Source: Aeromonas rivipollensis
GTDB lineage: Bacteria > Pseudomonadota > Gammaproteobacteria > Enterobacterales > Aeromonadaceae
Assembly (NCBI RefSeq): GCF_010974825.1
Contig: NZ_JAAILA010000008.1
Location: forward strand, 124,001-188,000
Direction of reading: 5' to 3'
Length of the DNA: 64,000 nt
Under the pieces are notes generated by a model that was given only the letters and a program-made list of their open reading frames with translations, searched no databases and was not told the origin of the DNA. Both the position numbers and the translations under genes were made by a program. Below, piece by piece: positions 17,760-63,344 of this stretch; position 1 is the stretch's first letter, and the number at the start of each line of letters is the position of its first letter.

Positions 17760-19711
17760 GCCTTGGTCTCCTCGTCACGACGGCCGAACCGGTAGCGCTT
17801 GTCCAGCATGGCCAGCACGCCGCCGATGGCCATGAAGACGCCACCGAACCAGATCCAGCGCACGAAGGGCTTGTAGTAGATACGCACCGCCCAGGCGCCG
17901 TTGTCGAGCTGCTCGCCCAGCGCCGCATAGAGATCCCGGGTGAAGCCGGCGTCGATGGCGGCTTCGGTCATCGGCATGCGACTGACCTTGTACATCCGCT
18001 TCTCGGGCTTGAGCAGGGCCACCTGCTTGCCGTTCCTGTGCACCTCCAGCACCCCCTTGAAGCCGTCGTAGTTGGGGCCGTTCTTTTCGCTGATACCGGT
18101 GAACACGAATTCGTAGTCGGCGAACTGCACCCTGTCACCGGCCTGCATGCGCAAGTCCTTCTCGATGCTGTAGTTCTGGGTGCAGGCGATGCCTATGATG
18201 CTGACCGCCAGCCCCACGTGGCCCAGGATCATGGCCCAATGGCTGTTGCCGAGTTTGCGCACCCCGGTGGCAAAACCGTGTTTGTGGGTGGCGCGCACCC
18301 AGGTCTCCTGGATGCTGGTGATGATGATCCAGGTACCCAGGCCTATGCCGAGCGCGGCCCAGGGCTTGAACTCACCGGCGAAGAGCTGCGGCAGCAGCAG
18401 GGCGGCGGCCAGGCTCAGCCCCAGGGCCAGCACCACCTTGCCCTTGAGCTCACCGAGCTCCTGACGGCGCCAGCGGAACAGCGGCCCGACCCCCAGCAGC
18501 AAGGCGAACGGGATGATCAGCCAGCTGTAGATGTGGTTGAAGAAGGGGGTACCGATGGAGATGCTGCCAAGCCCCAGCTCCTTGTGCACCAGGGGCAAGA
18601 GGGTGCCGAGCAGCACTGTCAGCAGGCCCGCCACCAGCAGTATGTTGTTGCCAAGCAGCAGGGTCTCGCGGCTCCATAGCTCGTGTTTGCCGTGGCTCTT
18701 GACCTGGGAGCCCTTGAAGGCGAACAGCAGCAAGGAGCTGCCTATCACCGCCAGCAGGAAGCCCAGGATGAAGAGGCCGCGGGTCGGGTCGGAGGCAAAG
18801 GCGTGGACGGACACCAGCACGCCGGAGCGCACCAGGAAGGTCCCCAGCAGACTCAGGGAGAAGGCCGAGAGCGCCAGCAACACAGTCCAGGCCTTGAAGG
18901 TGGCGCGCTTCTCACTCACCGCCAGCGAATGCAGCAGGGCCGTGCCCGCCAGCCAGGGCATGAAGGAGGCGTTTTCCACCGGATCCCAGAACCACCAGCC
19001 ACCCCAGCCGAGCTCGTAATAGGCCCACCAGGAGCCGAGCACTATGCCAAGGGTCAGGAAGACCCAGGCAGCCATGGTCCAGGGACGGGACCAGCGCGCC
19101 CAGGTGGCGTCGAGGCGCCCTGTCATCAGGGAGGCGATGGCAAAAGCGAAAGCCACCGAGAAGCCCACGTAGCCCATGTAGAGCATGGGCGGGTGGAAGA
19201 TGAGACCAGGATCCTGCAGCAGGGGGTTGAGGTCGCGACCATCTACCGGGAAGTACGGCAGGGTGCGGGTGAAGGGATCCGAGGTGAACAGCACGAAGGC
19301 GGTAAAGCCCACTGAGATGAGCCCGAGCACCCCCAGCACCCGCGCCACCGCATCCAGCGGCAGGCGACGGCTGAACAGGGCCACGGCCGCGGTCCAGCCT
19401 CCCAGGGTCAACACCCAGAGCAGCAGGGAGCCCTCGTGGGCCCCCCACACCGCCGAAATGCGGTACTGCAGCGGCAGCAGGCTGTTGGAGTTGGTGGCCA
19501 CGTACTGCACGGTGAAGTCGTTGTCGACGAAGGCCCAGGTCAGGCAGAGGAAGGAGAGCAACAGCAGCAGGAACTGGCTGTAGGCAAGCGGACGGGCTGC
19601 CGACATCATGCCGAGGCGCCCCAATTTGGCGCCGATCAGCGGATAGCTCCCCAGCAGCAGTGCGGTGGCAAAGGCCAGGATCAGTGCGAATTGCCCCAGT
19701 TCAGGGATCAT
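17756..19711 (-). CDS. ccmF: Cytochrome c haem lyase subunit CcmF
   Basis: This 651-residue multi-span membrane protein carries the WWD haem-handling motif 'WGGWWFWDPVENASFMPWL' and flanking periplasmic histidines. With CcmH and CcmI it attaches haem delivered by CcmE to apocytochrome c. The start 'MIPELGQFALILAFATALLL' is preceded by GAAAGGAA at good spacing. The first codons together with this ribosome binding site are duplicated twice just upstream, and each copy forms a mini-ORF whose stop overlaps the next start. Confidence 0.96.
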   Translation of the reverse strand: MIPELGQFALILAFATALLLGSYPLIGAKLGRLGMMSAARPLAYSQFLLLLLSFLCLTWAFVDNDFTVQYVATNSNSLLPLQYRISAVWGAHEGSLLLWVLTLGGWTAAVALFSRRLPLDAVARVLGVLGLISVGFTAFVLFTSDPFTRTLPYFPVDGRDLNPLLQDPGLIFHPPMLYMGYVGFSVAFAFAIASLMTGRLDATWARWSRPWTMAAWVFLTLGIVLGSWWAYYELGWGGWWFWDPVENASFMPWLAGTALLHSLAVSEKRATFKAWTVLLALSAFSLSLLGTFLVRSGVLVSVHAFASDPTRGLFILGFLLAVIGSSLLLFAFKGSQVKSHGKHELWSRETLLLGNNILLVAGLLTVLLGTLLPLVHKELGLGSISIGTPFFNHIYSWLIIPFALLLGVGPLFRWRRQELGELKGKVVLALGLSLAAALLLPQLFAGEFKPWAALGIGLGTWIIITSIQETWVRATHKHGFATGVRKLGNSHWAMILGHVGLAVSIIGIACTQNYSIEKDLRMQAGDRVQFADYEFVFTGISEKNGPNYDGFKGVLEVHRNGKQVALLKPEKRMYKVSRMPMTEAAIDAGFTRDLYAALGEQLDNGAWAVRIYYKPFVRWIWFGGVFMAIGGVLAMLDKRYRFGRRDEETKA

Positions 19712-19794
19712 GGCTGACTTCCTTTCAATTGCGCCGCGACCAGAACCGGCGCACAGGCATGAGACGGTGAGAACTGCCCCAGTTCAGGGATCAT
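19708..19794 (-). CDS. Junction mini-ORF 3 before ccmF (28 aa)
   Basis: This mini-ORF starts with MIPELGQF, identical to the CcmF N-terminus, and ends in AAQLKGSQP, which resembles the CcmE C-terminus AQLQGAKQ. Its TGA overlaps the ccmF ATG (ATGA). Its own start has the same ribosome binding site as ccmF. It may be translated as a coupling device. No function as a protein is claimed. Confidence 0.5.
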   Translation of the reverse strand: MIPELGQFSPSHACAPVLVAAQLKGSQP

Positions 19795-19877
19795 GGCTGA
19801 CTTCCTTTCAATTGCACCGCGACCAGAACCGGTGCACAGGCATGAGACGGTGAGAACTGCCCAAATTCGGGGATCAT
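19791..19877 (-). CDS. Junction mini-ORF 2 between ccmE and ccmF (28 aa)
   Basis: This mini-ORF starts MIPEFGQF and ends VAVQLKGSQP. It is nearly identical to mini-ORF 3 and overlaps it by ATGA. GAAAGGAA precedes its start. It is the second of three consecutive coupled short frames. Confidence 0.5.
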   Translation of the reverse strand: MIPEFGQFSPSHACAPVLVAVQLKGSQP

Positions 19878-19963
19878 TGACTATTTCCTTTCGATGGCAG
19901 GGTGAGACATACAGATCCGGCGGCGAAACGAGCTGAACACGAGATCAAGGCTGACGGCATCAT
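19874..19963 (-). CDS. Junction mini-ORF 1 directly after ccmE (29 aa)
   Basis: It starts at an ATG that overlaps the ccmE stop (ATGA), reads MMPSALIS and ends SKGNSQ, with its TGA overlapping the ATG of mini-ORF 2. It is more diverged than the other two but keeps the same length within one codon and both overlaps, so it is probably the oldest copy. Confidence 0.45.
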
Positions 19964-20451
19964 TGCTTGGCCCCCTGCAACTGCGCCTCGGTATATTCGG
20001 GCTTGAAGTGCATGCCATTGGTGGCGTCCGCCACCTCCGGCGGCATGTAGTTCTCGTCGTGCTTGGCCAGCACCTCGAAGGCGGCCACTGTGGTCGCGTC
20101 CTTGAGGGTGCCCTGGGCGACTATGCCCTGCCCTTCCCGGAACAGGTCCGGCAGTATGCCGTCAAATTCCACCGTCACCAGATGGCCGCCGTTGTCCACC
20201 AGCTTGAAGGCCACCTTGAGGCTCTGGGGATCCCGCTGCACCGAGCCCGGCACCACCAGGCCGCCGATGCGCAGGCGCTGGCCCTCTTCCGGCTTGACCT
20301 TCTCCGGCCCCTTGCCCTCCACCAGCTCGCTCGGGGTATAGAAGAGATCGATGTTCTGGCTGAGGGCATAGAGCACCAGGCCAGTCACGCTGGCGAGGCC
20401 CAGGCTGATGGCCAGAATGATGGTGAGGCGTTTCTTGCGTCTCGGGGTCAT
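19960..20451 (-). CDS. ccmE: Periplasmic haem chaperone CcmE
   Basis: This 163-residue protein has an N-terminal anchor ('[20 protein letters not shown]') and an OB-fold periplasmic domain. '[14 protein letters not shown]' carries the histidine that binds haem covalently and the tyrosine that ligates it. It takes haem from CcmABCD and delivers it to CcmF. The start at 20451 overlaps the ccmD stop (ATGA); the longer open frame to 20685 is not the gene. Downstream lie three coupled mini-ORFs before ccmF. Confidence 0.95.
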
Positions 20452-20654
20452 AGAGTGTTCTCCATCTGCTGGGCCGCCTTGCGACGGGCCTCTCGGGCCT
20501 GCTTGTTGCGCAATTCGCCGAGCAGGCTGCGGGTTTTCAACCGGGTGGAAATGACGATGCCGACCAGGCAGAGCGCGGTCAGACCGAAGGAGAGCCAGAC
20601 GTAGAAGGCGTAACCGCCCATGGCCATGAAGTCGCTGAATGAGGCAAAGTGCAT
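20448..20654 (-). CDS. ccmD: Haem exporter protein CcmD
   Basis: This 68-residue single-span protein reads '[20 protein letters not shown]' at its start, with the membrane helix following and a basic cytoplasmic tail rich in Arg, Lys and Gln. CcmD holds CcmC, CcmE and CcmAB together and helps release holo-CcmE. It lies three bases after ccmC and overlaps ccmE by ATGA. I cut the longer open frame (to 20792) at this ATG because it matches the family start. Confidence 0.92.
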
Positions 20655-20656
20655 GC

Positions 20657-21397
20657 TTACTTCTCCTGTCTGGCGATGTCGGCAACCCAGGGGCGGTGCC
20701 ACTCCCGCATCAGCAGCTCGTTGCGGAACCGCATCAGGGTCAGGGCCCCGAGGAAGGTGGCAAATGCCAGTATCATGATGAGCAGCGGCCACAGCATCTC
20801 GGGGGAGATGGAGGGCTTGTCAAACTTGGTGATGGAGGCGCCCTGGTGCAGGGTGTTCCACCACTCCACCGAGTAGTGAATGATCGGCAGGTTGATCACC
20901 CCCACCAGCGCCAGTATGCCGGCGGCGCGCCCCGCCACTACCTTGTCGCTGAAGGCGTTGTAGAGGGCGATGACCCCAAGATAGAGGAACAGCAGGATAA
21001 GCTCTGAGGTGAGGCGCGCATCCCACACCCACCAGGTGCCCCACATGGGCTTGCCCCAGGCGGCACCGGTGAAGAGGGCGATGAAGGTGAAGACGGCGCC
21101 CACCGGGGCTATGGCCGCCACCGTCATGTCCGCCATGCGCAGTTGCCACACCAGGCCGATGAAGGCCGCCACCGCCATGGTGGAGTAGGCTCCCATGGAG
21201 AGGATGGCGGCAGGCACATGGATGTAGATGATCCTGAAAGAGTCTCCCTGCTGATAATCGGCGGGGGCAAAGGCCAGCCCCCAGACGGTGCCTATGATGA
21301 AGGCGAGCAGGCTTGTCACGACAAACCAGGGCAGCAGGGTGCCGGCCAGCCCATAGGCGCGCTCGGGTTTGGCATAAGGGTGCAACCATTTCCACAT
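20657..21397 (-). CDS. ccmC: Haem exporter membrane protein CcmC
   Basis: This 246-residue protein has six membrane segments and carries the tryptophan-rich motif '[18 protein letters not shown]'. CcmC presents haem to CcmE at the outer face of the inner membrane. The gap to ccmB upstream (21398-21561) includes a terminator-like hairpin, unlike the other tight junctions of the cluster, so partial read-through or an extra promoter is likely here. Confidence 0.95.
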
Positions 21398-21524
21398 AGC
21401 TCACAGAACCTTTCAGTTATTAATTTTTAAGTGGCGAGGCCTACCATACCCACAGGCGGGAAACATCATATCCCCCCAAAGCAATAAGCAGCCATCCCCT
21501 TGATCTATCTCAATTATATTTTTC

Positions 21525-21552
21525 AAAAATAAGCCTCAAAAGAGGCTCTTTT
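21525..21552 (-). terminator. Hairpin with T-run after ccmB (attenuator or terminator)
   Basis: On the minus strand AGCCTC TTTT GAGGCT is followed by TATTTTT, directly after the ccmB stop. It lies inside the ccm cluster, so it should reduce expression of ccmC to ccmI relative to ccmAB unless there is another promoter in the AT-rich gap to ccmC. Confidence 0.6.
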
Positions 21553-21561
21553 GGTAATTAA

Positions 21562-22230
21562 TCAGTTGACGCTGACCCGCAGTGCCGCCGAGATGGCCAG
21601 GGGCGTCAGGGTCAGGGCCCCCACCAGCATGGCCCCCAGGATCGCGAGCTGCCCCCCGTAGGGCAACCCCATGCTGGCCGCATCGATGGCGGAGGTGGCG
21701 AAGATAAGCACCGGGATATAGAGCGGCAGCAGCAGCAGGCTGAGCAGCACGCCCCCCTTGCGCAGTCCCGCCGTCAGCGCCACCCCGACAGCCCCGAGCA
21801 GGCTCAGCACAGGGGTGCCGAGCGCCAGGGTGGCCACCACCGCCAGATAGCTCTTCATGTCCAGGGAGAGCAGGATGGCGAGCAGCGGCGAGACCAGCAG
21901 CAGCGGCAGGCCGGTCAGCAACCAGTGAGCGATCACTTTCGCCAGCGCCAGCAGCCCGAGGGGATGGGGCATCAGCATCATCTGCTCCAGGGCGCCGTCG
22001 CTGAAGTCATCGCGAAACAGCCGCTCCAGAGAGAGCATGGCCGCCAGCAGGGCCGCCACCCAGATGATGCCGGGGGCGATGCGGGCCAGCAGCTGGGGCT
22101 CGGGCCCGATGCCGAGGGGAAAGAGGGTGATGACGATGAGGAAGAACCAGAGCGGGTTGAAGATGTCGGCGCGCTGGCGCAGGGCCATCAGCAACTCGCG
22201 GTGAATAAGGTGTATGACGGCGCGCAGCAT
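21562..22230 (-). CDS. ccmB: Haem exporter permease CcmB
   Basis: This 222-residue ABC-type permease has six hydrophobic segments. 'FRDDFSDGALEQMMLMPHPL' in the first cytoplasmic loop is the family motif. It pairs with CcmA to drive release of haem-loaded CcmE. It is separated from ccmA by two bases, so the two are clearly in one operon. Confidence 0.95.
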   Translation of the reverse strand: MLRAVIHLIHRELLMALRQRADIFNPLWFFLIVITLFPLGIGPEPQLLARIAPGIIWVAALLAAMLSLERLFRDDFSDGALEQMMLMPHPLGLLALAKVIAHWLLTGLPLLLVSPLLAILLSLDMKSYLAVVATLALGTPVLSLLGAVGVALTAGLRKGGVLLSLLLLPLYIPVLIFATSAIDAASMGLPYGGQLAILGAMLVGALTLTPLAISAALRVSVN

Positions 22231-28546: not shown

Positions 28547-30688
28547 TCAGTGGCGGCGGGCATAGGCCTTGAGCAGGCTGGGCACGTCCAGGATGAGGGC
28601 GATGCCGCCGTCGCTGGTGATGGTGGCGCCGGCCATGCCGGGGGTCCCTTGCAGCAGATTGTCCAGGGGCTTGATCACCACCTCTTCCTGACCGATGAGG
28701 TTGTCCACGACGAAGCCCACCTGCTGGGTGCCGATCTGGACTATGACCACGTGGCCTGTGTCCTGGCGTGCCGCTCTGCCGGCACCGCGGACCAGCCACT
28801 TGTGCAAGTAGAACAGCGGGATCGCCTTGTCGCGGACTATGATGGTGAGCTGGCCGTCCACCACGTTGGCCTTCTTCAGATCCAGGTGGAAGATTTCGTT
28901 CACGCAGCCAAGCGGCAGGGCGAAGGTCTGTTCACCCACTTCCACCATCAGGGTCGGCAGTATGGCCAGGGTCAGGGGAACCTTGATCTCAAGGCGGGTG
29001 CCCTTGCCCCAGGTCGAATCTATGTGCACAGAGCCATTGAGGCTGACGATGCTGGTCTTCACCACATCCATGCCGACGCCACGGCCCGAGATGTCGGAGA
29101 TCTCGGACTTGGTCGAGAAACCGGGGGCGAAGATCAGGTTGTAGGCATCGTTGTCGCTCATGCGCGCCGCGCTGTCTGCATCGAGCACGCCACGGCTGAT
29201 GGCGATGGCTTTGAGCTTCTCCGGATCCATGCCGGCGCCGTCATCCTCGATGCAGAGCAGAATATGGTCACCCTGCTGGGAGGCGCTCAGGGTGATGGTG
29301 CCCTGACGGGGCTTGCCCGCCTTCTCCCGCACGTCCGGCATCTCGACGCCGTGGTCGCAGGAGTTGCGCACCAGGTGAACCAGGGGATCGGCCAGGGCCT
29401 CCACCAGGTTCTTGTCGAGATCCGTCTCTTCACCCACCATCACCAGCTCAATATCTTTCTTGAGGGTGCGGGCGAGATCGCGCACAACGCGCGGGAAGCG
29501 GCCGAAGACTTTCTTGATAGGTTGCATGCGGGTCTTCATGACCGCGCCCTGCAGATCGGCGGTCACCACATCCAGGTTGGCCACCGCCTTGGACATCTCT
29601 TCGTCGTTGCTGGCGATGCCGAGGCTCACCAGGCGGTTTCGCACCAGCACCAGCTCCCCCACCATGTTCATGATGACGTCCAGGGTCTTGGTATCCACCC
29701 GCACAGTAGTGTCGTTTTGCACCGCACTGCTCTCGGCGGGGGCCGCCTGCTTGGCAGGAGTGGGAGCAGTGGCCGGCTTGGCCGGTGCAGAAGCGGGTTT
29801 GGCGGGGGCGGCGCTGGCCGCGACCGGCGCCTTGGGCGGGGCCACAGGCGCGGCGGGAGCCTTGGGCTCGGGAGCCGGAGTAGCCGCCGCCATGCTGTGC
29901 TGCGGCGCCTGGCCACGGCCATGCAATTCATCCAGCAGGCGTTCGAACTCGTCGTCGTCGATGAGCTCATCCACCTCTTTTTGTACCGATTGCAGCGGGG
30001 AGAGATCCGGAGCGCCGCCATGCTGGCCCTGGCCGTGCAGTTGATCGAGCAAGGCCTCGAACTCGTCGTCCGTGATGTCGCCCGAGCCGCTCAAAACGGG
30101 GGCGGCAGACACTGTCGGCGCCTTGCCAGCACCGTGCAGTTCATCCAGCAGGCGCTCGAATTCGTCGGCAGAGATCTCGTCGATGGAGCCGCCACCGTTG
30201 ACGGCCACAGGCGCGCTCTCGGCGACGATGACGGGTTCGGGTTCCGGCTCGGGCTGCTGCGGGGCGGCAACACTGGCGGTACGCAACTGCTCCTGCCCTT
30301 CGGGTTTGCACAGTTCGTGCAGATCGTGCAGCAGATCGGCAGAGGCCGGGCTGGTCGGCTCCCGATTCTGCACCTGGGCAAACATGACGTTGATGGCATC
30401 AAGGGCCTGCAAAATGACATCCATCAGCTCAGCACTGAGGGTTCGCTTGCCGTTGCGCAGCATGTCGAACAGGTTCTCGGCACCGTGGCAGACGTCCACC
30501 AGCTCGGTCAGGGAGAGGAAACCCGCTCCCCCCTTGACGGTATGGAAGCCGCGAAAGATGGCATTCAACAGATTCTTGTCATCGGGCCGCTTTTCCAAGT
30601 CGACCAGTTGTTCAGACAACTGTTCCAATATTTCTGATGCTTCGACCAAAAAGTCTTGCAGTATGTCTTCATCAACTTCGAAGGCCAT
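28547..30688 (-). CDS. cheA: Chemotaxis histidine kinase CheA
   Basis: This 713-residue kinase has a P1 domain with phospho-His49 ('[14 protein letters not shown]'), a long Ala/Pro-rich linker, the dimerisation domain ('[20 protein letters not shown]'), the ATPase with '[17 protein letters not shown]' and '[11 protein letters not shown]', and a C-terminal CheW-like domain. The linker (about residues 172-260) carries three near-identical copies of a [14 protein letters not shown] motif in place of a recognisable folded P2 domain. CheA phosphorylates CheY and CheB. It lies 11 bases after cheZ. Confidence 0.96.
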
Positions 30689-37320: not shown

Positions 37321-37500
37321 TAGGATATTCCGGCGGAACATGGTGGACAGCTCTCTGGCGGCGGAGACAGCCAACGCCTCAGAGCACAGACTGCTTGCAA
37401 TAGTCCGGCGGCATAGTGGACAGACCTTGGTGGCGGAGACGGCCAACGCCTCCCAAAACACCGGGCTACTTGCGATATTCCGGTGGAATGGGCAGATCCT
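37321..37500 (-). repeat. Tandem copies of the flhB 3' end (75-bp unit)
   Basis: Three units begin at equivalent positions 75 bases apart (TATTCC or TAGTCC near 37326, 37401 and 37476). The innermost is the true end of flhB (LPIPPEYRK). The second reads LSTMPPDYCKQ in the flhB frame and the third keeps PPEY. The second half of each unit carries the conserved stretch encoding EALAVSA. The remaining 120 bases up to the flhA promoter hold nothing else I recognise. Confidence 0.85.
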
Positions 37501-38596
37501 TGGCGACCGGGGTCGGGCGGCGGCCACGGCCACGGCGGAACTTCTTGAGCTGATAGACATAGGCCAGCACCTGGGCCACGGCGGCAAAGAGCCCCTCGGG
37601 GATCTCCTGGCCAATCTCGGTGGCGTGGTAGATGGCCCGGGTCAGGGGCGGCGAGGACATCACCGGGATATCGTACTCCCGCGCTATCTCCCTGATCTTC
37701 ATCGCCACCTCGTCCACCCCCTTGGCCAGCACCTTGGGGGCGGCGCCTGGCTTGCCCGCGTCGTACTTCAGGGCCACGGAGTAGTGGGTCGGGTTGGTGA
37801 TGATGACGTCCGCCTTGGGCACATCCCCCATCATGCGGCGCATCGCCATCTGCATCTGCAACTGGCGGATCTTGCCCTTTACCTCGGGCTTGCCCTCACT
37901 GTCCCTGAACTCGTCCTTGATCTCCTGCTTGGTCATCTTGAGCTGGCGATTGTGGTTCCAGGTCTGGAAGGGCACGTCTATGGCGACTATGGGGATCAGG
38001 GCGCAGCAGAGGATGATCAGCATCCACAGCAGCAGGTCCAGGGCGTCTATGATGCCGCCGGGGAAGCCCTCGAGGGAGAGATTGAGCAGGTGATTGAACT
38101 GGCTAGACAGCATCCACCAGGCGAACAGGCTGATGAACACCACTTTGGCGATGGACTTGACGAGCTCCACCAGGGACTGCACCCCGAACATCCTCTTCAA
38201 ACCACTCAAGGGGCTCAGCTTGCTCCACTTAGGCAGCATGGCCTCGGAGGAGAAGTTCATCCCCCCCAGCAGGGTGTTGCCCACGAAGGCGGCTATGGTC
38301 ACCAGCAGGAACAGCAGGCCGAGGGGCTGCAGCAACTCCCACAGCAGGGTGGGCAGCATGACCCCCATGGCGTTGGGATCGAACGCCTGATCCCGGTCCA
38401 GGGTAAAGCCCATGGTGAGTACCTTGACCATGGCGCCAGCCAGGCTCTCCTTGATCATCAGCAAGCCAAACACGGTCGCCAGCAGGACGCTGGCGGTACC
38501 CAGCTCCTTGGAACGTGCAATCTGCCCTTTTTCCCGGGCCTGTTGCAGTCGTTTGCCCGTGGGTTGTTCTGTGCGTTCCTGATCGGTATCAGCCAT
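37466..38596 (-). CDS. flhB: Flagellar export switch protein FlhB
   Basis: This 376-residue protein has four membrane helices in the first 215 residues and a cytoplasmic domain with the self-cleavage site in 'IITNPTHYSVALKY' (NPTH). It switches export from hook to filament substrates. The start MADTDQERTEQPTGKR is family-typical. Its first bases and the end of fliR are duplicated as a unit just upstream, and its own last codons are duplicated downstream. Confidence 0.96.
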   Translation of the reverse strand: MADTDQERTEQPTGKRLQQAREKGQIARSKELGTASVLLATVFGLLMIKESLAGAMVKVLTMGFTLDRDQAFDPNAMGVMLPTLLWELLQPLGLLFLLVTIAAFVGNTLLGGMNFSSEAMLPKWSKLSPLSGLKRMFGVQSLVELVKSIAKVVFISLFAWWMLSSQFNHLLNLSLEGFPGGIIDALDLLLWMLIILCCALIPIVAIDVPFQTWNHNRQLKMTKQEIKDEFRDSEGKPEVKGKIRQLQMQMAMRRMMGDVPKADVIITNPTHYSVALKYDAGKPGAAPKVLAKGVDEVAMKIREIAREYDIPVMSSPPLTRAIYHATEIGQEIPEGLFAAVAQVLAYVYQLKKFRRGRGRRPTPVAKDLPIPPEYRK

Positions 38597-38693
38597 GCTG
38601 GCCTCTCAGGCACATCAAGTCGCCATGGCGAGCTAACCCCCACGCGCAGCAGACGGGGAGATAATCGGTACTTTTCAGCCCGGTATCAGCCAT
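38589..38693 (-). CDS. Junction mini-ORF between fliR and flhB (34 aa)
   Basis: It starts MADTGLKST (FlhB starts MADTDQERT) and ends CLRGQHG (FliR ends CLGGQNG). It overlaps the fliR stop by eight bases (ATGGCTGA) and the flhB start by the same eight bases. It is therefore a complete copy of the fliR/flhB junction, placed between the two genes. The period between the two ATGs is 97 bases. It is probably a coupling relay and not a functional peptide. Confidence 0.5.
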   Translation of the reverse strand: MADTGLKSTDYLPVCCAWGLARHGDLMCLRGQHG

Positions 38694-39483
38694 TTTGGCC
38701 CCCCAGGCACTGGACCTGGATAAGCTCGCAGCTGGTCTCCTGCACCCGCTCCCAGAGGGAGTCAAAGTGCCCCATGAAGCCGCCTATGGTGAGCCAGAGG
38801 ATGAACAGGCCCGACATCATGCTGACCGCGAAGCCGATGCTGAAGATGTTGAGCTGGGGGGCCGCCCGGGTCATGACCCCGAACGCGAAGTTGATGAGCA
38901 GCAGGGCAATGATGGCCGACAGCGCCATCACCAGGGAGGCCTGATACATGACCCCTAGGAAGCTTACCAGGCTGCGGATGGCGGGCAGGCTGAGCCCGCT
39001 GTCCGAGACCGGCAGGGTCTCGAAGCTCAGCACCACCATCCTGATCATCAGGAGGTGGCCGTCCACCGCCAGAAACACCAGGGTCGCCAGCATCAGGTAG
39101 AACTGACCCACCACGGGGGCCGACTGGCCGTTCATGGGGTCCACCAGGGTGGCGAAGCCCAGGCTGGTCTGCATGGCGATGATCTGGCCCGCCATCACGA
39201 AGCTTTCCAGCAGAAACTGGGTCATGAGGCCGAGCGCTATGCCGATGAGCAGCTGCTGCCCCAGCACCAGGAAGCTGCCGACGGAGAACAGCTCCACCTT
39301 GGGCATGGGGGGCAGCAGGGGGGCGATGATGAAGGTGATGGCGAGCGCCAGCCCCATGCGAACGTTCGCAGGAGCCAGCCGGCTGCCGAACACCGCCATC
39401 ACCATCAGCAGGCTGCTCACCCGGGCAAGGGGCCAGAGCACGGACGCCAGCCACTCCATGATCACCGCAGTGGTATAGCTCAT
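38686..39483 (-). CDS. fliR: Flagellar export gate protein FliR
   Basis: This 265-residue membrane protein has about six helices, with 'LALAITFIIAPLLPPMPKVE' and 'MTQFLLESFVMAGQIIAMQT' among the conserved segments. It is part of the FliPQR export gate. The start MSYTTAVIMEWLASVLWPLA overlaps the stop of a 24-codon mini-ORF. Its stop overlaps the junction mini-ORF before flhB. Confidence 0.95.
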   Translation of the reverse strand: MSYTTAVIMEWLASVLWPLARVSSLLMVMAVFGSRLAPANVRMGLALAITFIIAPLLPPMPKVELFSVGSFLVLGQQLLIGIALGLMTQFLLESFVMAGQIIAMQTSLGFATLVDPMNGQSAPVVGQFYLMLATLVFLAVDGHLLMIRMVVLSFETLPVSDSGLSLPAIRSLVSFLGVMYQASLVMALSAIIALLLINFAFGVMTRAAPQLNIFSIGFAVSMMSGLFILWLTIGGFMGHFDSLWERVQETSCELIQVQCLGGQNG

Positions 39484-39554
39484 GCCGCCGCTACCGAAGC
39501 CGTGGGACTGATGGTCATCGGCAGCCTGATGGTCGCTAATGCCGACACGGGCAT
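39480..39554 (-). CDS. Possible coupling mini-ORF between fliQ and fliR (24 aa)
   Basis: Its ATG overlaps the fliQ stop by one base (TGATG) and its TGA overlaps the fliR start (ATGA). It begins MPVSALATIRLP and ends ASVAAA. Unlike the other junction mini-ORFs it shows no clear similarity to its neighbours, so it may be an old diverged copy or a chance frame. Confidence 0.35.
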   Translation of the reverse strand: MPVSALATIRLPMTISPTASVAAA

Positions 39555-39823
39555 CAGCCGACCACCTCGGGGATCTGGCTCACCATCAGCTGGAAGAAGT
39601 CCATCAGGCTCTGCAGGCCCCAGTGGGCGCCTGCCCCCAGGGCCAGCAGGGTGACGACGAGACGGGGCAGGAAGCTCAGGGTCTGTTCGTTGATGGAGGT
39701 GGCGGCCTGGAAGATGGCGACGACCAGCCCCACCATCAGGCTCGGCAGGATAACGGCGCACACCATTATGGTCACCAGCCAGAGCGCCTCACGGAATACG
39801 TCGACGAAGGTTTCCGGACTCAT
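39554..39823 (-). CDS. fliQ: Flagellar export gate protein FliQ
   Basis: This 89-residue protein with two membrane helices reads 'MSPETFVDVFREALWLVTIM' and 'GLVVAIFQAATSINEQTLSF', the usual FliQ signature. It forms the gate with FliP and FliR. GGAG precedes the start at good distance. The stop leads directly into a short mini-ORF before fliR. Confidence 0.95.
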   Translation of the reverse strand: MSPETFVDVFREALWLVTIMVCAVILPSLMVGLVVAIFQAATSINEQTLSFLPRLVVTLLALGAGAHWGLQSLMDFFQLMVSQIPEVVG

Positions 39824-46733: not shown

Positions 46734-46999
46734 CGCGCCTCCAGAGAGAAAGGGGAAAGAGGCCGAGACAAGGAGCCTGCCGCCATTGTCACCAAGTCGG
46801 GAGACAGTGCGCTGCCTATGCCCGACCGGGAAGAGATGTCACTCGGCATTGTCACGAAGGGAAATGGTGCGCAGCAGCCTGGCTTCCCTGTGCCAGAGCG
46901 GAACAGAGTGTCAGTCGGCATTGTCACGAAGGGAAATGGTGCGCAGCAGCCTGGCTTCCCTGTGCCAGAGCGGAACAGGGTGTCAGTCGGCATTGTCAC
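46730..46999 (-). CDS. Repeat-built frame between fliH and fliI (89 aa)
   Basis: It starts with a GTG (or ATG at 46993) inside the end of fliH and ends in a TGA that overlaps the fliI ATG. It consists of four units, each beginning [27 protein letters not shown] or VTMAAGSLS. The last resembles the FliI start MTASLLSRL. It keeps both junction overlaps, as in the other mini-ORFs, but has no good ribosome binding site of its own. Confidence 0.4.
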
Positions 47000-47001
47000 G
47001 A
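46780..47001 (-). repeat. Tandem copies of the fliH 3' end (72, 72 and 63-bp units)
   Basis: The fliH end ([11 protein letters not shown] then TGA) is followed by two copies that read [12 protein letters not shown] and [12 protein letters not shown] in the fliH frame and by a third that is degenerate ([11 protein letters not shown]). The equivalent position recurs at about 46983, 46911, 46839 and 46776. The first two copies are almost identical to each other. Confidence 0.92.
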
Positions 47002-47786
47002 AGGAAGTTGCGCAGTAGTTGATCGATGCGCCCCGAGAGGGTCAGATCGATGCTGGAGAGTTCGGTGGCCAGCTGCAGATCCCCCGGGGAGAGGGTGGGA
47101 TCGCTTTGCAGCCGCCAGTGACGCCGGGCACACTCCTCGGCGCCGAAGGCCTGCTCGACCCGGGCCACATCGTCCGGGTGCAGCATCAGGGTGACCCCCT
47201 GCTCAGCGGCAGGCAGCAGGGCAAGACCCTGCTTGAGGGCCTCGAGCAACAGTCTTGGGGAGGTCTCGGCCTCGTGGCGAATGAGGGCGCGGGCGAGCTG
47301 CTGGACCAGGGCGATGAGCTGCTGCTCCACGGCGCTGTCCTGCTCGCTCAGGGGATTGGCGAGGCGGGAGACGAGCCCCTGCCAGTGGGCAATCTCCTGC
47401 TCCACCTGATCGCGGCCCAGGGCAAGCCCCTCTTCGCGGCCCTGCTCCAGACCCGCCTGATGACCCTGCTGCAAGCCTTCCAGCTTGCCCTCCTCCAGCC
47501 CCTTGGCAAAGCCGGCCTCTCGCCCCTCGGCCAGCCCCTCTTCCCAGGCGGCCTGGCGGATTGCCTCCACCTCTTCGGCGGTGATGCTGGGGGTCGGCTC
47601 CTCGGGCTGCTCCTCGGGCGGCATCTCGTCCGCCTGCTCCTGGCGATACCAGTCAGGGCCGAGCCCCAGGGCATTGCTCTGGATCTCGGATTCGACCTCC
47701 ATCTCGGGCCAGCCCCAGGCTTCCACCCGGGTCTCGTCCGCCTCGGGTCTGACATAGCCCCGCAGCTTGCTGTTCTTGTTATTCAT
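46983..47786 (-). CDS. fliH: Flagellar export ATPase regulator FliH
   Basis: This 267-residue protein has an acidic N-terminal half and a central stretch of G-x-x-x-G repeats ('EGLAEGREAGFAKGLEEGKL') that is typical of FliH, then a C-terminal domain similar to the F1 delta subunit. It holds FliI and docks it to the C-ring. Its last 13 codons are duplicated in tandem before fliI. Confidence 0.94.
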   Translation of the reverse strand: MNNKNSKLRGYVRPEADETRVEAWGWPEMEVESEIQSNALGLGPDWYRQEQADEMPPEEQPEEPTPSITAEEVEAIRQAAWEEGLAEGREAGFAKGLEEGKLEGLQQGHQAGLEQGREEGLALGRDQVEQEIAHWQGLVSRLANPLSEQDSAVEQQLIALVQQLARALIRHEAETSPRLLLEALKQGLALLPAAEQGVTLMLHPDDVARVEQAFGAEECARRHWRLQSDPTLSPGDLQLATELSSIDLTLSGRIDQLLRNFLRDNAD

Positions 47787-50626: not shown

Positions 50627-50771
50627 TTATTGCTGACATGCTCATCATTGCTGACATCTTCATGATGATCTGTCGTCAAAATTTATTGAGATCTCTTATT
50701 GCCGACATCTTCACGATGTTCAGTCGCCGTGATTGATTGAGATCGCTTATACCGGCATGTTCATGATGGTC
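50627..50771 (-). repeat. Tandem copies of the fliE 3' end (51-bp unit plus an 18-bp sub-repeat)
   Basis: The end of fliE (IMNMPV then TAA) recurs 51 bases further as a segment that reads IVKMSAIR and again as IMKMSAMMSMSAIR. Equivalent TTAT positions on the plus strand are 50747, 50696 and 50627. The last interval is longer by one internal 18-bp duplication. The array fills most of the gap up to fliF. Confidence 0.88.
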
Positions 50772-51064
50772 TTGTAGGCATCGACCATCTTGTTACGCAC
50801 CTGCACCGTCGCCTCGAAGGCGATGGAGGATTTCTGCCCGGCGATCATCACCTCGGACAGGTCCACCGACTTGTCGCCCATATCGAACCGGGTGCGCAGA
50901 TCGTTGGCGCTGCCCTGCAATTCGTTGACGTTGTCGAGGGCCTGCTGCAGCATCTGACCGAAATCCGAGTTGACCGGACGACCGGGCTGGGTCAGCGGCG
51001 TGGCACCGGCTTCTACCTTGAGTGCCTGCATCTCTTGCATCAGGCTGCTTGCGCTTATTTCCAT
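50747..51064 (-). CDS. fliE: Flagellar hook-basal body protein FliE
   Basis: This 105-residue protein shows the usual C-terminal signature 'VMIAGQKSSIAFEATVQVRN' and 'KMVDAYKTIMNMPV'. FliE joins the MS ring to the rod. It is the first gene of the large fli operon and has a sigma-54 promoter 41 bases upstream. Its last codons are duplicated before fliF. Confidence 0.95.
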   Translation of the reverse strand: MEISASSLMQEMQALKVEAGATPLTQPGRPVNSDFGQMLQQALDNVNELQGSANDLRTRFDMGDKSVDLSEVMIAGQKSSIAFEATVQVRNKMVDAYKTIMNMPV

Positions 51065-59373: not shown

Positions 59374-60366
59374 ATGCAAATCGCCCAAACCGACGCGCCC
59401 ATCATCGAGGTCCAGCATCTCTACAAGGACTTCGCCGTCAACTCCAATGCCATCAAGAGCGGCAAGATGCGGGCCCTCTCCGACATCACCTTCAACCTGC
59501 ACCGGGGCCGCGCCCTGGCGGTGGTGGGGGAGTCGGGCTCCGGCAAGAGCACCATCGCCAAGATCATCGCCAAGATGTACAAGCTCTCCAACGGCCGCAT
59601 CCTCTACCGCGGCCGGGATCTGGAGGAGTTCAACAAGGGCACAGCCCTGCTGGACTATCGCCAGAGCGTGCAGATGGTATGGCAAGACCCGTTCGGTTCG
59701 CTCAACCCGACCCACACCATCTACCACCACATAGCCCGCCCCCTGCTGCTGCACAGCAAGGTGCTCGACAAGAAAGATCTGCCGGACATGGTCTATGCCC
59801 TGCTGGAAAAAGTGGGGCTGACCCCGGCCAAGGCCACGGCAGCCAAGTATCCCCACCAGCTCTCCGGCGGCCAGCGCCAGCGGGTCAACATAGCCCGCAA
59901 CCTGGCGGTGGAGGCGGAAGTGGTGCTGGCGGACGAGCCCACCTCCATGCTCGACGTCTCCATTCGCATCGGCATCCTCAACCTGATGGAGCAGATGAAG
60001 AACGAGCTCGGCGTCTCCATGCTCTACATCACCCACGACATCGCCACCGCCCGCTACGTGGCGGAAGATCTCGCGGTCATGTACGTGGGGCACATGGTGG
60101 AGTGGGGCGAGGTGGACGAGATACTGCACCACCCCCAGCACCCCTATACCCAGTTGCTCATCTCGGCGGTGCCCGACCCCGAGAAGAGCATCCATGCCGA
60201 GCTGGAGGGGGGCCGCAAGGGGGAAATCCCGCTCTGGACCCCGGAATCCCGGGGCTGCCCCTTCGCCGGTCGCTGCCATCAGGCAATGGCTCGCTGCAAG
60301 GAGAGCCTGCCGCCGGTGACCAAGCTTGCCGACAACCACTTCGTGCGCTGCTACCTGCACGAATAA
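59374..60366 (+). CDS. Chitooligosaccharide ABC transporter ATPase 2 (DppF type)
   Basis: This ATPase of about 330 residues has Walker A 'VVGESGSGKSTIAKIIAKM', signature 'LSGGQRQRVNIARNLAV', Walker B 'EVVLADEPTSMLDV' and a C-terminal 'GCPFAGRCHQAMARC'. I prefer the ATG at 59374 because AAGGA stands eight bases before it. The ATG at 59365 directly abuts that signal. Confidence 0.92.
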   Translation: MQIAQTDAPIIEVQHLYKDFAVNSNAIKSGKMRALSDITFNLHRGRALAVVGESGSGKSTIAKIIAKMYKLSNGRILYRGRDLEEFNKGTALLDYRQSVQMVWQDPFGSLNPTHTIYHHIARPLLLHSKVLDKKDLPDMVYALLEKVGLTPAKATAAKYPHQLSGGQRQRVNIARNLAVEAEVVLADEPTSMLDVSIRIGILNLMEQMKNELGVSMLYITHDIATARYVAEDLAVMYVGHMVEWGEVDEILHHPQHPYTQLLISAVPDPEKSIHAELEGGRKGEIPLWTPESRGCPFAGRCHQAMARCKESLPPVTKLADNHFVRCYLHE

Positions 60367-60417
60367 GCCAGCCCCCCACGCCGGGGGCGGCCTTACCGGC
60401 CCGCGACACCTTCACCC

Positions 60418-60437
60418 GGGCCTCCTCGCGAGGCCCC
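60418..60437 (+). other. GC-rich hairpin before the GH9 gene
   Basis: GGGCCTC / GAGGCCC can pair, without a T-run, in the 102-base gap between the second ATPase and the GH9 gene. It may stabilise or separate transcript segments. No other feature is seen in this gap. Confidence 0.35.
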
Positions 60438-60468
60438 TTCATTGCCCCAGACCAGGGAGTAAAGCTGG

Positions 60469-62184
60469 ATGGAACTCTTGATCAATCAGGTGGGTTACGA
60501 TTGTGACGGACACAAGATTGCCCTGCTGCAGACCGACGCCAACGTGGAAATAAGCGGCCTGGTGCGACTGCGGCGCCTGCATGATGACCGCCTGCTGCTG
60601 GAGGTTCCTCTCCAGGCCGCAGGCCAGGTGCCAGGCTGGCAGGGACGCGCCTACTGGCGTGCCGACTTCAGCGCCTTCAAGGAGCCCGGCTACTACCGGC
60701 TGGAAGCCATCACAGCACAGGGCATAGTCCGCTCCACCCGCTTCGCCATAGGTCAGGATCTGCTGACCAGCCGCTGCCTCTCAGATGTCATTCACTACTT
60801 CAAGGGCCAGCGTGCCAGCGGCGCCTTCGATAGAGCCGACCGCAGCGCCCGCCTGTTTGGCACCGACCAGCGCAAGGATGTGCACGGCGGCTGGTTCGAT
60901 GCCAGCGGCGACATGAGCAAATACCTGAGCCACCTCTCCTACGCCAACTACCTCAACCCCCAGCAGACCCCCCTGGTGGTATGGAGCCTGCTCAAGAGCC
61001 GGGCGCTCCTGGCGACGCGCCGCGACATCGACGGGCTGAACCTCTGCAAGCGGCTCGGTGACGAGGGGCTGCACGGGGCGGATTTTCTCTGCCGGATGCA
61101 AGATGAGAGCGGCTTCTTCTACATGACACTGTTCGACAAGTGGAGCAAGGATCCCGAGCAGCGCGAGCTGTGCGCCTACGCCACCCAGCAGGGGCTCAAG
61201 TCCAACGACTGGCAGGCGGGCTTTCGCCAGGGGGGCGGCATGGCCATTGCCGCCCTGGCCCGGGCCGCCCGCGAGCAGTCCGGCGGCGACTTCGATACCA
61301 GCCACTATGCCGAGGCGGCCAGGCGCGGCTACCTGCACCTGCGCGAGCACAACCTCGCCTATCTGGACGACGGCCTCGAGAACATCATCGACGACTATTG
61401 CGCCCTGCTGGCTGCGGTGGAACTAACCCAGACCCTTGGCCGCGACTGGCTCGGGGAGGCAAGGGAGAGGGCCGGCAGGCTCTGCGCCCGCCAGTTCCCC
61501 CACCCCGAGCTTGGCCACTACTGGAGTGCCAATGAGGACGGCTCGCGCCCCTACTATCACGCCGCCGAGGCGGGTCTGCCGGTGCTGGCCCTGCTGGAGT
61601 ACCTGGGGGTCGAGCCGGATCAGGATCGCCGCGCCCGGGTGAGCGCCGTGGTGCAGCAGGCGCTGGCCGCCGAGCTGGCCCTCGCCGCCCGGGCGGGCAA
61701 CCCCTTCGCCCTGGCTCGCCAATACGTGAAGGGAGTGGATGAAGCCCCCCGCATCAGCTTCTTTATGCCCCACCACAACGAGTCCGGTTACTGGTGGCAG
61801 GGGGAGAATGCCCGGCTGGCCTCCCTGGCCGCCATGGCCTTCGCCGCGGCCCTCCACTTCCCCCAGCAGAGCCCACTTCTGATGACGTTCGGTCAGCGCC
61901 AGCTCGACTGGATCCTCGGGCAAAACCCCTTCAACGCCTGCATGCTGGCGGGGCACGGCATCAACAACCCGAGCTATACCGCCGGTTATCCCAATGCACT
62001 CGGCGGCATCTGCAACGGCATCACCTCAGGATTCGATGACGAGGCTGAGGTGGCCTTCATCCCAGAGGAGTACAGGGATCGGCTGGATCAGAACTGGCGC
62101 TGGGGGGAGCAGTGGATCCCCCACGCAGCCTGGTTCGCCCTGGCCATCAGCTGGCAGAGTGCGCCGGAGGCTCGTCATGATTGA
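60469..62184 (+). CDS. Glycoside hydrolase family 9 protein, probably exo-glucosaminidase
   Basis: This 571-residue cytoplasmic enzyme has an N-terminal Ig-like (CelD_N-type) domain ('MELLINQVGYDCDGHKIALL') and an (alpha/alpha)6 barrel with the GH9 nucleophile-side motif 'VHGGWFDASGDMSKYLSHLS', 'IIDDYCALLAAVEL' and 'LDWILGQNPFNACMLAGHG'. Vibrionaceae members in this operon position are known as exo-beta-D-glucosaminidases that trim glucosamine from imported oligomers. It has no signal peptide. Its last 85 bases and the start of the kinase gene are duplicated just downstream. Confidence 0.88.
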   Translation: MELLINQVGYDCDGHKIALLQTDANVEISGLVRLRRLHDDRLLLEVPLQAAGQVPGWQGRAYWRADFSAFKEPGYYRLEAITAQGIVRSTRFAIGQDLLTSRCLSDVIHYFKGQRASGAFDRADRSARLFGTDQRKDVHGGWFDASGDMSKYLSHLSYANYLNPQQTPLVVWSLLKSRALLATRRDIDGLNLCKRLGDEGLHGADFLCRMQDESGFFYMTLFDKWSKDPEQRELCAYATQQGLKSNDWQAGFRQGGGMAIAALARAAREQSGGDFDTSHYAEAARRGYLHLREHNLAYLDDGLENIIDDYCALLAAVELTQTLGRDWLGEARERAGRLCARQFPHPELGHYWSANEDGSRPYYHAAEAGLPVLALLEYLGVEPDQDRRARVSAVVQQALAAELALAARAGNPFALARQYVKGVDEAPRISFFMPHHNESGYWWQGENARLASLAAMAFAAALHFPQQSPLLMTFGQRQLDWILGQNPFNACMLAGHGINNPSYTAGYPNALGGICNGITSGFDDEAEVAFIPEEYRDRLDQNWRWGEQWIPHAAWFALAISWQSAPEARHD

Positions 62185-62306
62185 GACGCACAAGGATCGG
62201 CTCGGACATCATTGGCGCAGGAGAGAGCAGTGGATCCTCCAATCATTCAGCCTGGTTTGCCCTGGCCATCAGCTGGCAGAGTGCGCCGGGGGCTCGTCAT
62301 GATTGA
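62100..62306 (+). repeat. Duplicated GH9/kinase junction (122-bp period)
   Basis: The segment 62100-62184 (end of GH9 through ATGATTGAG) recurs at about 62222-62306. The two copies agree at most positions and keep the core 'CTGGCCATCAGCTGGCAGAG'. The true kinase start is in the second copy. The first copy's ATG (62177) lies inside the GH9 end. Confidence 0.92.
62177..62302 (+). CDS. Junction mini-ORF between the GH9 and kinase genes (41 aa)
   Basis: It starts MIETHKDR (the kinase starts MIEFWVGV) at an ATG that overlaps the GH9 end by eight bases. In its middle it reads REQWI like GH9 (GEQWI), then shifts frame and ends CAGGSS with a TGA that overlaps the kinase ATG (ATGA). It is another copy of the junction that keeps both overlaps. 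Confidence 0.45.
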   Translation: MIETHKDRLGHHWRRREQWILQSFSLVCPGHQLAECAGGSS

Positions 62307-63171
62307 GTTCTGGGTCGGGGTCGATGGCGGGGGGACTCACACCCGCGCCCGCATTCGGGACAAGGGGGGTAGAGTGCTGGGAGAGGGGCGCGCCGCGGGC
62401 TCCAACCTGGAGCTCGGCATAGAGGTTGCTCACGCCAATGTGCTGGCAGCCATCGCCAGCGCCCGGCTGGCCGCCGGGCTTGGCATCGAGTGCGAACAGC
62501 GGATGGGGGTGGGGCTGGCGCTGGCCTCCGCCGAGCTGGCCGACTGCTACCAGGCCCTGCTCGAGATGCCCTTCCCCTTCGCGAGCGTCAGGCTCACCTC
62601 CGACGCCTTCGGCGCCTGCCTCGGCGCCTTTGGTAGCCGGGAGGGGGCCATCCTCATCGCAGGCACAGGGTCCGCCGGGCTCATCTACCGCCATGGTCAG
62701 CTCCATAGCTGCTCAGGACGCGGCTTCCCCATCTCGGATCTGGGCAGCGGCGCCTGGCTGGGGCTGCGCGCCATCCAGCAATCCCTGCTCTGCCACGACG
62801 GCATCCTGCCCCCCAGCCTGCTCGCCGTGCGCCTGCTCGATCACTTCAAGCGGGATCAGGCCGAGGTGGTGCGCTGGGCCGCCCGCGCCATTCCCGCCGA
62901 CTATGGCCGCTTCGCCCCCTGGGTGTTCGACGCCGCCAGCGACGGGGATGAGCTCGCCAACCAGCTGCTGGACGAAACCTGCGCCCAGTTGCAGACCCTG
63001 CTGGAGGGGATGAGGCTGCTGGGAGCCGACCGCATCGCCCTGCTGGGCGGCGTCGGCATGCGCCTGGCCCCTCGCCTGGGTCACCTCAACCTGGTGCCCC
63101 CGCAAGCCGATGCGCTGGAAGGCGCCATCCTGTTTGCCCAGTCGGAGGCCTACCCATGCCTGCATCCCTGA
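62299..63171 (+). CDS. gspK: Glucosamine kinase GspK, BadF/BadG family
   Basis: This 290-residue kinase has the ATPase phosphate-1 motif 'VGVDGGGTHTRARIRDKGG', 'LIAGTGSAGLIYRHG' as phosphate-2, and 'GRGFPISDLGSGAWLGLRA'. It phosphorylates free glucosamine (or GlcNAc) made in the cytoplasm by the GH9 and GH20 enzymes. The start at 62299 fits the family, so the open frame back to 62212 is part of the duplicated junction. Its C-terminus LFAQSEAYPCLHP is repeated several times downstream. Confidence 0.9.
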   Translation: MIEFWVGVDGGGTHTRARIRDKGGRVLGEGRAAGSNLELGIEVAHANVLAAIASARLAAGLGIECEQRMGVGLALASAELADCYQALLEMPFPFASVRLTSDAFGACLGAFGSREGAILIAGTGSAGLIYRHGQLHSCSGRGFPISDLGSGAWLGLRAIQQSLLCHDGILPPSLLAVRLLDHFKRDQAEVVRWAARAIPADYGRFAPWVFDAASDGDELANQLLDETCAQLQTLLEGMRLLGADRIALLGGVGMRLAPRLGHLNLVPPQADALEGAILFAQSEAYPCLHP

Positions 63172-63344
63172 GCACTGTTCGCCCAGTCGGACGCCTATCC
63201 ATGCCTGCATCCCTGAGCCCTGTTTGCCCAGCCAGAGGCCTATCTATCTCTGCCCCCCTGAGCCCTGCCCGGCGTGAACCATACGCCGAAGAGGGCACCA
63301 CACTGTTCGCCCAATCAGAGGAATACCCATGTCTGCACCCCTGA
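63127..63344 (+). repeat. Tandem copies of the kinase 3' end / GH20 start (45-bp unit)
   Basis: In the kinase frame the copies read LFAQSEAYPCLHP, LFAQSDAYPCLHP, LFAQPEAYLSLPP, a degenerate one, and LFAQSEEYPCLHP, each followed by TGA. In the GH20 frame the same DNA reads MPASLS, MPASLS, ISAPLS and finally MSAPLI, the true GH20 start. The array is about 4.5 units long. Confidence 0.93.
63156..63344 (+). CDS. Junction mini-ORF between the kinase and GH20 genes (62 aa)
   Basis: It starts MPASLSTV (GH20 starts MSAPLIHT) inside the kinase end and stops with TTLFAQSEEYPCLHP, the kinase C-terminus, inside the GH20 start. It overlaps the kinase by 16 bases and GH20 by 15. No AGGAGG-like site precedes it, so it would rely on coupling to the kinase. 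Confidence 0.5.
   Translation: MPASLSTVRPVGRLSMPASLSPVCPARGLSISAPLSPARREPYAEEGTTLFAQSEEYPCLHP

Follow-up and report, generated by a model that had tools for sequence, protein, structure and literature searches.

The 64,000-nucleotide (nt) stretch of Aeromonas rivipollensis DNA analysed here (the window; positions 124001-188000 of contig C53 in a 4.53 Mb assembly of 56 contigs, hereafter G000) holds several same-strand gene junctions at which sequence is duplicated in tandem and at which the copies form short open reading frames (mini-ORFs) that overlap the genes on either side. Three such frames stand in tandem between ccmE and ccmF, with a 4-nt overlap at each joint, and the N terminus of the second (MIPEFGQF) resembles that of CcmF itself (MIPELGQF). 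The mini-ORF between fliR and flhB is chimeric, reading MADTG...RGQHG where FlhB begins with MADTD and FliR ends with GGQNG, and a TTG-started frame between a GH9 family glycosidase gene and a kinase-like gene ends with 14 amino acids that equal the GH9 C terminus except at one position; the motif ATGATTGA in this last unit permits bridging by two frames. An earlier reading of the DNA letters (the original prediction) had claimed tandem duplication at five junctions and, at the clearest three, chimeric mini-ORFs overlapping both neighbours. Both claims hold, the former through arrays detected by Tandem Repeats Finder (TRF) at four junctions (ccmE/ccmF, fliH/fliI, GH9/kinase and kinase/GH20) and through the chimeric ORF at fliR/flhB, where the copy (period 97) has diverged too far for TRF, and the latter at ccmE/ccmF, fliR/flhB and GH9/kinase; the periods were right in value but listed in the wrong order, since 72 belongs to fliH/fliI and 122 to GH9/kinase. 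A further mini-ORF, between fliQ and fliR, had been overlooked.

Throughout, a gap is called strictly bridged when mini-ORFs (relays) cross it with an offset of -1, -4 or -8 at every joint; more permissive rules accept loose joints (within 8 nt) or wide joints (-20 to +11 nt). TRF finds seven long-period arrays in the window, each at gene ends or spacers (Table 1). No bridge was found in G000 at three expanded junctions, namely flhB/flhA, kinase/GH20 (where none appears even with loose joints) and that between the genes flanking the 51-bp array, which we take to be fliE and fliF. At fliH/fliI, an 89-amino-acid ORF crosses the 72-bp copies in one frame; its GTG start lies 17 nt inside fliH and its end 4 nt into fliI (wide joints). 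A loosely joined ORF of varying length (46734-46982), running from near the fliH stop to 4 nt into fliI, bridges 8 of 28 genomes, with G000 added under wide joints, and is possibly a weaker relay at a non-overlapping junction.

Table 1. Genes, relay mini-ORFs and tandem arrays of the window, in order of position
Feature	Position	Strand	Remarks
Tandem array, period 112	7299-7621		3' end of M20 peptidase gene; TRF; not listed in the original prediction
ccmF, downstream gene	17756..19711	(-)	Pfam PF16327, PF01578
Tandem array, period 83, 2.6 copies	19684..19899	(-)	Spans ccmE/ccmF junction; TRF
Relay mini-ORF 3, 28 amino acids	19708..19794	(-)	4-nt overlap with ccmF start
Relay mini-ORF 2, 28 amino acids	19791..19877	(-)	4-nt overlaps
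Relay mini-ORF 1, 29 amino acids	19874..19963	(-)	4-nt overlap with ccmE stop; translation checked
ccmE, upstream gene	19960..20451	(-)	Pfam PF03100
Tandem array, period 75	37324..37487	(-)	flhB/flhA spacer; duplicated, unbridged; TRF; not listed in the original prediction
flhB	37466..38596	(-)	Pfam PF01312
Relay mini-ORF fliR/flhB, 34 amino acids	38589..38693	(-)	8-nt overlaps on both sides
fliR	38686..39483	(-)	Pfam PF01311
Relay mini-ORF fliQ/fliR, 24 amino acids	39480..39554	(-)	1-nt overlap with fliQ stop, 4-nt overlap with fliR start
fliQ	39554..39823	(-)	Pfam PF01313
Tandem array, period 72	46829..47004	(-)	fliH/fliI; duplicated, no strict chain; TRF
Tandem array, period 51	50647..50772	(-)	Unbridged; TRF; not listed in the original prediction
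GH9 family glycosidase gene	60469..62184	(+)	Pfam PF00759
Tandem array, period 122	62072..62307	(+)	Spans GH9/kinase-like junction; TRF
Alternative GH9/kinase relay frame, 41 amino acids, ATG start	62177..62302	(+)	8-nt overlap upstream, 4-nt overlap downstream
Relay mini-ORF GH9/kinase, 41 amino acids, TTG start	62181..62306	(+)	4-nt overlap with GH9 stop, 8-nt overlap with kinase-like gene
BadF/BadG-family ATPase (kinase-like) gene	62299..63171	(+)	Pfam PF01869
Tandem array, period 45	63129..63267	(+)	3' end of kinase-like gene, before GH20 gene; TRF; GH20 by Pfam

The ccmE/ccmF junction was compared at 30 loci cut out of the 37 Aeromonas genomes with ccmF. A plain ATGA overlap is present in 6 of the 30, and 24 are expanded, with gaps of 55-248 nt, every one of which is filled by one to three mini-ORFs whose overlaps with one another and with the flanking genes are 4 nt (a few relay starts allow an alternative 1-nt overlap that leaves the frame unchanged). 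The coupling geometry that the mini-ORFs were said to preserve in the window is therefore seen across the genus. Unit lengths (59, 68, 74, 77, 80, 83 and 86) differ from one another by multiples of three, and AAAGGA lies at most 20 nt from the ccmF start in 22 of the 24 expanded genomes. The expansion is absent from the 20 outgroup genomes read (a subset of those with ccmF), and three outgroup genomes of the same family, as well as E. coli K-12, have a plain -4 overlap, which argues that the expansion arose inside Aeromonas, the simplest starting point being a -4 overlap.

The amino acids of the ccm mini-ORFs differ widely between genomes. Among 13 genomes that share an 82-nt gap, relay codons 2-21 (18 close pairs) differ 27, 54 and 29 times at codon positions 1, 2 and 3, with 23 synonymous and 80 nonsynonymous codon changes, and codons 22-28 (48 pairs) differ 27, 82 and 89 times, with 15 synonymous and 127 nonsynonymous changes; the flanking coding sequence is biased towards the third position (12/6/95 at the ccmE end and 45/5/169 at the ccmF start). 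Codon-position differences thus give no sign of purifying selection on the amino acids of the ccm relays, which, set against the bias of the flanks, argues for selection on the frame and the ends and not on the peptide. The mini-ORFs might also encode functional small proteins of the operons, since they are open, have start codons and recur at conserved operon positions in many species. We regard this reading as very improbable, given the missing third-position excess, the lack of ccmE/ccmF mini-ORFs in 6 of the 30 Aeromonas loci and in every one of the 20 outgroup genomes read, and a copy number that differs within a species.

Given that TRF overlooks diverged copies (for example, at fliR/flhB), junction lengths were compared directly between orthologues. 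The pairs compared were same-strand neighbours on contig C53, traced along 180-220 kb of six other genomes and at 21 FliH loci; a pair overlapping in one genome was counted as expanded when it was longer by 20 nt or more in another, and rows were excluded when the start could not be mapped to a start codon within the first four residues, identity was below 55% or the gap lay outside -60 to 1200 nt. Of the 128 pairs, 126 could be classed; the remaining two were a pair with fewer than two genomes to compare and a pair outside both classes. Thirty-one pairs overlap in at least one genome, and 8 of these are expanded elsewhere by inserts of 28-501 nt, which are strictly bridged in 45 of 46 cases, whereas the 95 pairs that overlap in no compared genome include 17 with expansions, strictly bridged in only 4 of 79 cases. 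Counted as distinct junction-plus-length states and with the ccm loci included, 34 of 35 are bridged in the first class against 4 of 55 in the second (Fisher 3e-19); pooled rows including ccm number 70, with five ccm genomes counted twice, and the 65 distinct rows include 64 bridged, the state counts being unaffected. The GH9/kinase junction sits in the second class, as it shows a plain overlap in no compared genome, and so works against the claim. Within the first class, fliQ/fliR is bridged in all 15 expanded genomes, G000 among them, and the most extreme case is fliR/flhB of A. aquatica, in which a 501-nt gap holds a strict chain of six mini-ORFs (two short ones, one of them TTG-started, followed by four near-identical 37-amino-acid copies). 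One of the genomes compared, G010, has expansions of its own (L165-L167 and L192-L198), such as a loosely bridged 69-nt gap at ccmA/ccmB; three pairs outside the window hold strictly bridged examples.

Bridging can also come about by chance. Random duplications of plain junctions, when simulated, were strictly bridged in 38% (all overlapping pairs) or 42% (expanding pairs) of cases, so that roughly two in five restore the junction unaided. A copy is often open because its first codons come from gene 2 and its last from gene 1, each set open in its own frame. At the eight expanding junctions, 97-100% of simulated copies were bridged when their length fell in the residue class (modulo 3) that fits the overlap (2 mod 3 for a -4 and 1 mod 3 for a -8 overlap; by arithmetic, 2 mod 3 for -1), class 0 was near zero except at one junction, and the remaining class ranged from zero to high, since a second overlap is available at some start regions. 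Coupling is accordingly not restored ‘however many copies exist’, as had been supposed; its restoration requires a unit length that fits the overlap modulo 3, and this requirement makes bridging look selected rather than automatic. Neutral drift, under which junction duplications would be tolerated anywhere and the mini-ORFs would be an accidental by-product of a copied start and stop, has in its favour that arrays are seen in E. coli K-12 too and at junctions that are convergent, divergent or non-overlapping, that simulated fresh duplications need no selection to be bridged at a rate of 38-42%, and that loose bridging occurs at non-overlapping junctions (25 of 79). We nevertheless judge drift to be quite improbable, as 34 of 35 states are bridged despite the divergence of many, against 4 of 55 strictly bridged states at non-overlapping junctions of the same genomes. 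For a probability of 0.424, the binomial value of 34 in 35 is 4e-12 (24 in 25 without ccm, 2e-8), which points to selection against the unbridged rest.

Most mini-ORFs carry marks of their junctions. The C termini of 58 of the 75 distinct mini-ORFs of at least 15 amino acids share at least three of their last eight residues with the upstream protein, and 20 of 75 share at least three of residues 2-9 with the downstream protein, compared with 7.8% and 4.3%, respectively, against other junctions; common descent connects many of the 75, and ribosome-binding words at the ends may raise the C-terminal figure. The clearest chimeras are a fliN/fliO mini-ORF, MTRTIALTDVIISQAERIKKLK, with a C terminus resembling FliN, and one at fliR/flhB, MADTDQAHGTEQPGQ...GGQHG, where FlhB starts with MADTDQERTE and FliR ends with GGQNG. 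The other two frames of the mini-ORFs hold 89 stop codons in 1,929 and 45 in 1,853, a comparison by frame that is partly circular, as a bridged chain is open by definition.

Another reading holds that the mini-ORFs keep ribosomes on the mRNA against Rho-dependent termination or RNA decay rather than delivering them to a start; for this, any translated gap would suffice and the peptide sequence would be irrelevant. The flhB/flhA gaps (106-644 nt), in the same gene cluster, lack a bridge in 20 of 20 genomes, loose joints included, and polarity needs no -1, -4 or -8 overlap at the downstream start, yet one is present in 45 of 46 cases; we hold this reading to be improbable.

At the scale of the whole genome, 35 of the 539 gaps of 20-700 nt in G000 are strictly bridged. 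A half-swap null gives 18.7 ± 3.9 (maximum 26 in 40 rounds); a shuffle null (25.4 expected) had been replaced as too generous, as it preserved both end motifs and the gap length, hence the frame. Chimeric mini-ORFs occur in 14 of the 35, against a permuted mean of 0.17 and a maximum of 2 in 300 rounds, and the pairs concerned include (by Pfam) FKBP/LytB (fkpB/ispH), the junction before an LptF/LptG-family gene, E1-dehydrogenase/transketolase-like and abhydrolase/enoyl-CoA hydratase. The fkpB/ispH junction, read in G000 and in six single-contig genomes of the 36 others with ispH, has a plain -1 overlap in five of the seven, including G023, a single-contig genome of the same species as G000; G000 (C34:44952-45030, L239) and G036, from another species, carry a bridged 26-amino-acid mini-ORF starting with MDILLANPRGFC, as IspH does, a distribution that implies recent gain, loss or exchange. 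Elsewhere in G000 (C17:131987-132344; L100:11987-12344), two tandem 45-amino-acid ORFs with a period of 134 precede a GntR/aminotransferase (MocR-like) regulator gene, copying approximately its first 30 residues with 4-nt ATGA overlaps at each joint; this relay is made from the start region alone, and the nearest called upstream gene is on the opposite strand. A 300-kb sample of E. coli K-12 has 108 gaps, of which 3 are bridged, with no chimeric case; it is too small to exclude relays there.

Copy number also varies within the species. The GH9/kinase gap is 114 nt with one relay in G000 and 358 nt with three relays in G023, fliR/flhB measures 89 and 227 nt, and fliH/fliI 249 and 183 nt, respectively, whereas ccmE/ccmF and fliQ/fliR are of equal length in both. 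As the window's genome lies in 56 contigs, a short-read assembly artefact might be suspected; relays are, however, present in single-contig genomes (G023, G010, G015, G035 and G036) and the copies within arrays are distinguished by substitutions, so that we give this explanation almost no credence.

Arrays with a period of at least 40 are not equally dense inside and outside genes: in 1.387 Mb of G000 (82% coding), 23 are not wholly within a gene and 4 are, and in six relatives (1.2 Mb) the counts are 14 and 8, so that equal density is rejected for G000 and more weakly for the genus. The in-gene periods of G000 (45, 63, 102 and 108) are each divisible by three, as are those of all 12 in-gene arrays of the seven genomes. 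By blastn, the 23 arrays of G000 have few short or adjacent matches elsewhere in 1.39 Mb, and the ccmE/ccmF array matches only itself in the whole genome; the units are thus unrelated, which bears out the view of a recurrent process and not of one mobile repeat. The idea that junction repeats are unique to Aeromonas was dropped, as E. coli K-12 has 3 outside-gene arrays in 300 kb (23 in 1,387 kb in G000). At 7299-7621, approximately three copies of 112 bp, the second and third nearly identical, include the stop codon of the M20 peptidase gene, which faces a convergent gene; this is a junction duplication with no coupling role. The spacer holding the 51-bp array (50629-50772) has a gap of 131 in G000 versus 55 in G023, and the GTG start of the gene downstream (presumably fliF) is kept in the 28 genomes mapped. 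At 29903-30179, weak internal repeats in one gene, which we take to be cheA-like, have spacings of 99, 114 and 213, all multiples of three.

Published coupling rules provide a further comparison. Reporter work on native pairs (PMC10666635) found that coupling is almost lost at gaps of approximately 20-38 nt and needs no more than the last 15 nt of the upstream gene. Under these rules, an unbridged insert of 55-500 nt would uncouple the genes and a well-placed short ORF would restore coupling; the pattern seen is the one that these rules predict. The preferred spacings given in PMC12548453 are -4, -1 and -8.

Taken with the geometry of the joints, the chimeric origin at most junctions, the conservation of frame without that of peptide at ccmE/ccmF and the contrast with non-overlapping junctions, these comparisons lead us to consider it very likely that untargeted tandem duplication is followed by selection for copies that keep termination–reinitiation coupling. 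Small tandem duplications (approximately 50-140 bp) would arise at many places, surviving inside genes only as whole codons and being tolerable across a gene boundary, where both genes would retain their real ends. At a -4, -1 or -8 stop/start overlap, translation of gene 2 would depend on termination–reinitiation and an untranslated insert would break the coupling; a duplication of fitting length modulo 3 would immediately, without further mutation, yield an open chimeric mini-ORF (the start and first codons of the downstream gene, then the last codons and stop of the upstream gene) that overlaps both neighbours as the original junction did. After terminating on gene 1, ribosomes would reinitiate at the start of the mini-ORF and, having translated it, once more at that of gene 2; extra copies would lengthen the relay, and selection would hold the frame and the overlaps while the peptide would be free to drift. 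From these sequence comparisons we infer that ribosomes translate the mini-ORFs and that selection acts on coupling. That almost all surviving copies examined at overlapping junctions are short frames that could pass a ribosome onward suggests that the hand-over is protected by evolution.

Several observations weigh against this interpretation. One junction (fliR/flhB in G015, gap 134) fails the strict rule, its mini-ORF starting 1 nt past the stop, and the contrast between classes narrows to 46/46 versus 25/79 with loose joints and 46/46 versus 35/79 with wide joints, so that it persists but is less extreme; 9 of the 25 loose cases (10 rows) come from four pairs with smallest gaps of 0-18 nt (ccmA/ccmB, 150663>149752, fliP/fliQ and fliL/fliM, some of these names being our presumption). 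Species share ancestry, so that the states are not fully independent and the probability values are approximate, and the excess of bridged gaps in a single genome is moderate (35 versus 18.7 ± 3.9). Outside-gene arrays are few in G015, G016 and G035 (1, 0 and 0, with 3, 2 and 1 in genes), and the excess of junction over in-gene arrays is weaker in the relatives than in G000. The fliQ/fliR mini-ORFs are mostly unlike their flanks, and these relays may be old or of different origin. Only 32 of 57 relay starts have a Shine–Dalgarno-like word before them (background 12.5%), about the same frequency as at plain starts (89 of 177). Reporter studies, finally, disagree on how far ribosomes travel between genes; PMC10666635 gives both views and cites other experiments that saw coupling across long gaps.

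If selection for termination–reinitiation coupling is the correct interpretation, translational coupling becomes visible in sequence evolution: surviving inserts in overlapping junctions are almost always bridged, which argues that native overlapping pairs need the stop/start hand-over. Duplication is also seen to be able to rebuild a junction without new mutation, and the pattern gives a test of which overlaps matter. It also advises caution, in that such ORFs of 20-40 codons are not necessarily small-protein genes. A more speculative extension, which we think doubtful, is that relay copy number acts as a heritable, reversible rheostat of the product ratio of an operon with coupling retained. 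Each relay would scale translation of the downstream gene by its reinitiation efficiency, taken to be less than one, and expansion or contraction of the array would thereby tune the ratio; one versus three relays at GH9/kinase within one species and the chain of six at fliR/flhB in A. aquatica would be examples.

Among known systems, variable number tandem repeats (VNTRs) likewise differ in tandem copy number within a species, as G000 and G023 do; to our knowledge, ordinary intergenic VNTRs have neither a frame nor a stop/start requirement. Mycobacterial interspersed repetitive units (MIRUs), the closest known case, occur as tandem copies. As described in a 2025 review (PMC12548453), they are apparently mobile short repeats at genes, with an ORF coupled to its neighbour at -4 nt and an insertion that barely disturbs expression, so that the ‘no named system’ of the original prediction needs some qualification; each Aeromonas unit is made at its own locus. 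The geometry of an internal ORF coupled at -4 nt is found in Aeromonas, where -8 and -1 also occur; whereas MIRUs are one sequence family inserting at start codons, the Aeromonas units are unrelated, chimeric and variable in length, each deriving from its own junction, and blastn of the 23 arrays against 1.39 Mb found no homologous family at many loci. The flank-like ends (58 of 75 C termini and 20 of 75 N termini), together with the lack of a shared family, speak for local copying as the probable source. Many small ORFs of Enterobacteriaceae abut or overlap their neighbours, according to the account in PMC11188072, the main text of which does not use the word ‘tandem’, and in the open-access literature, as far as its retrieved excerpts extend, no paper on junction duplication leading to coupling ORFs was found apart from the MIRU passage. 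Natural or synthetic ribosome-delivering upstream ORFs (PMC12548453, PMC13255528) resemble the relays in that both would deliver ribosomes with the peptide irrelevant; those ORFs are either engineered or located ahead of a gene, whereas the Aeromonas relays are intercistronic and apparently derive from junction copying. Termination–reinitiation coupling itself shares its spacing motifs with the relays, as those given in PMC12548453 and PMC10666635 (-4, -1 and -8) are the ones present at every joint in 45 of 46 expanded cases. Known cases join two real genes directly, whereas Aeromonas inserts one to six disposable mini-ORFs, which change in length and number during evolution.

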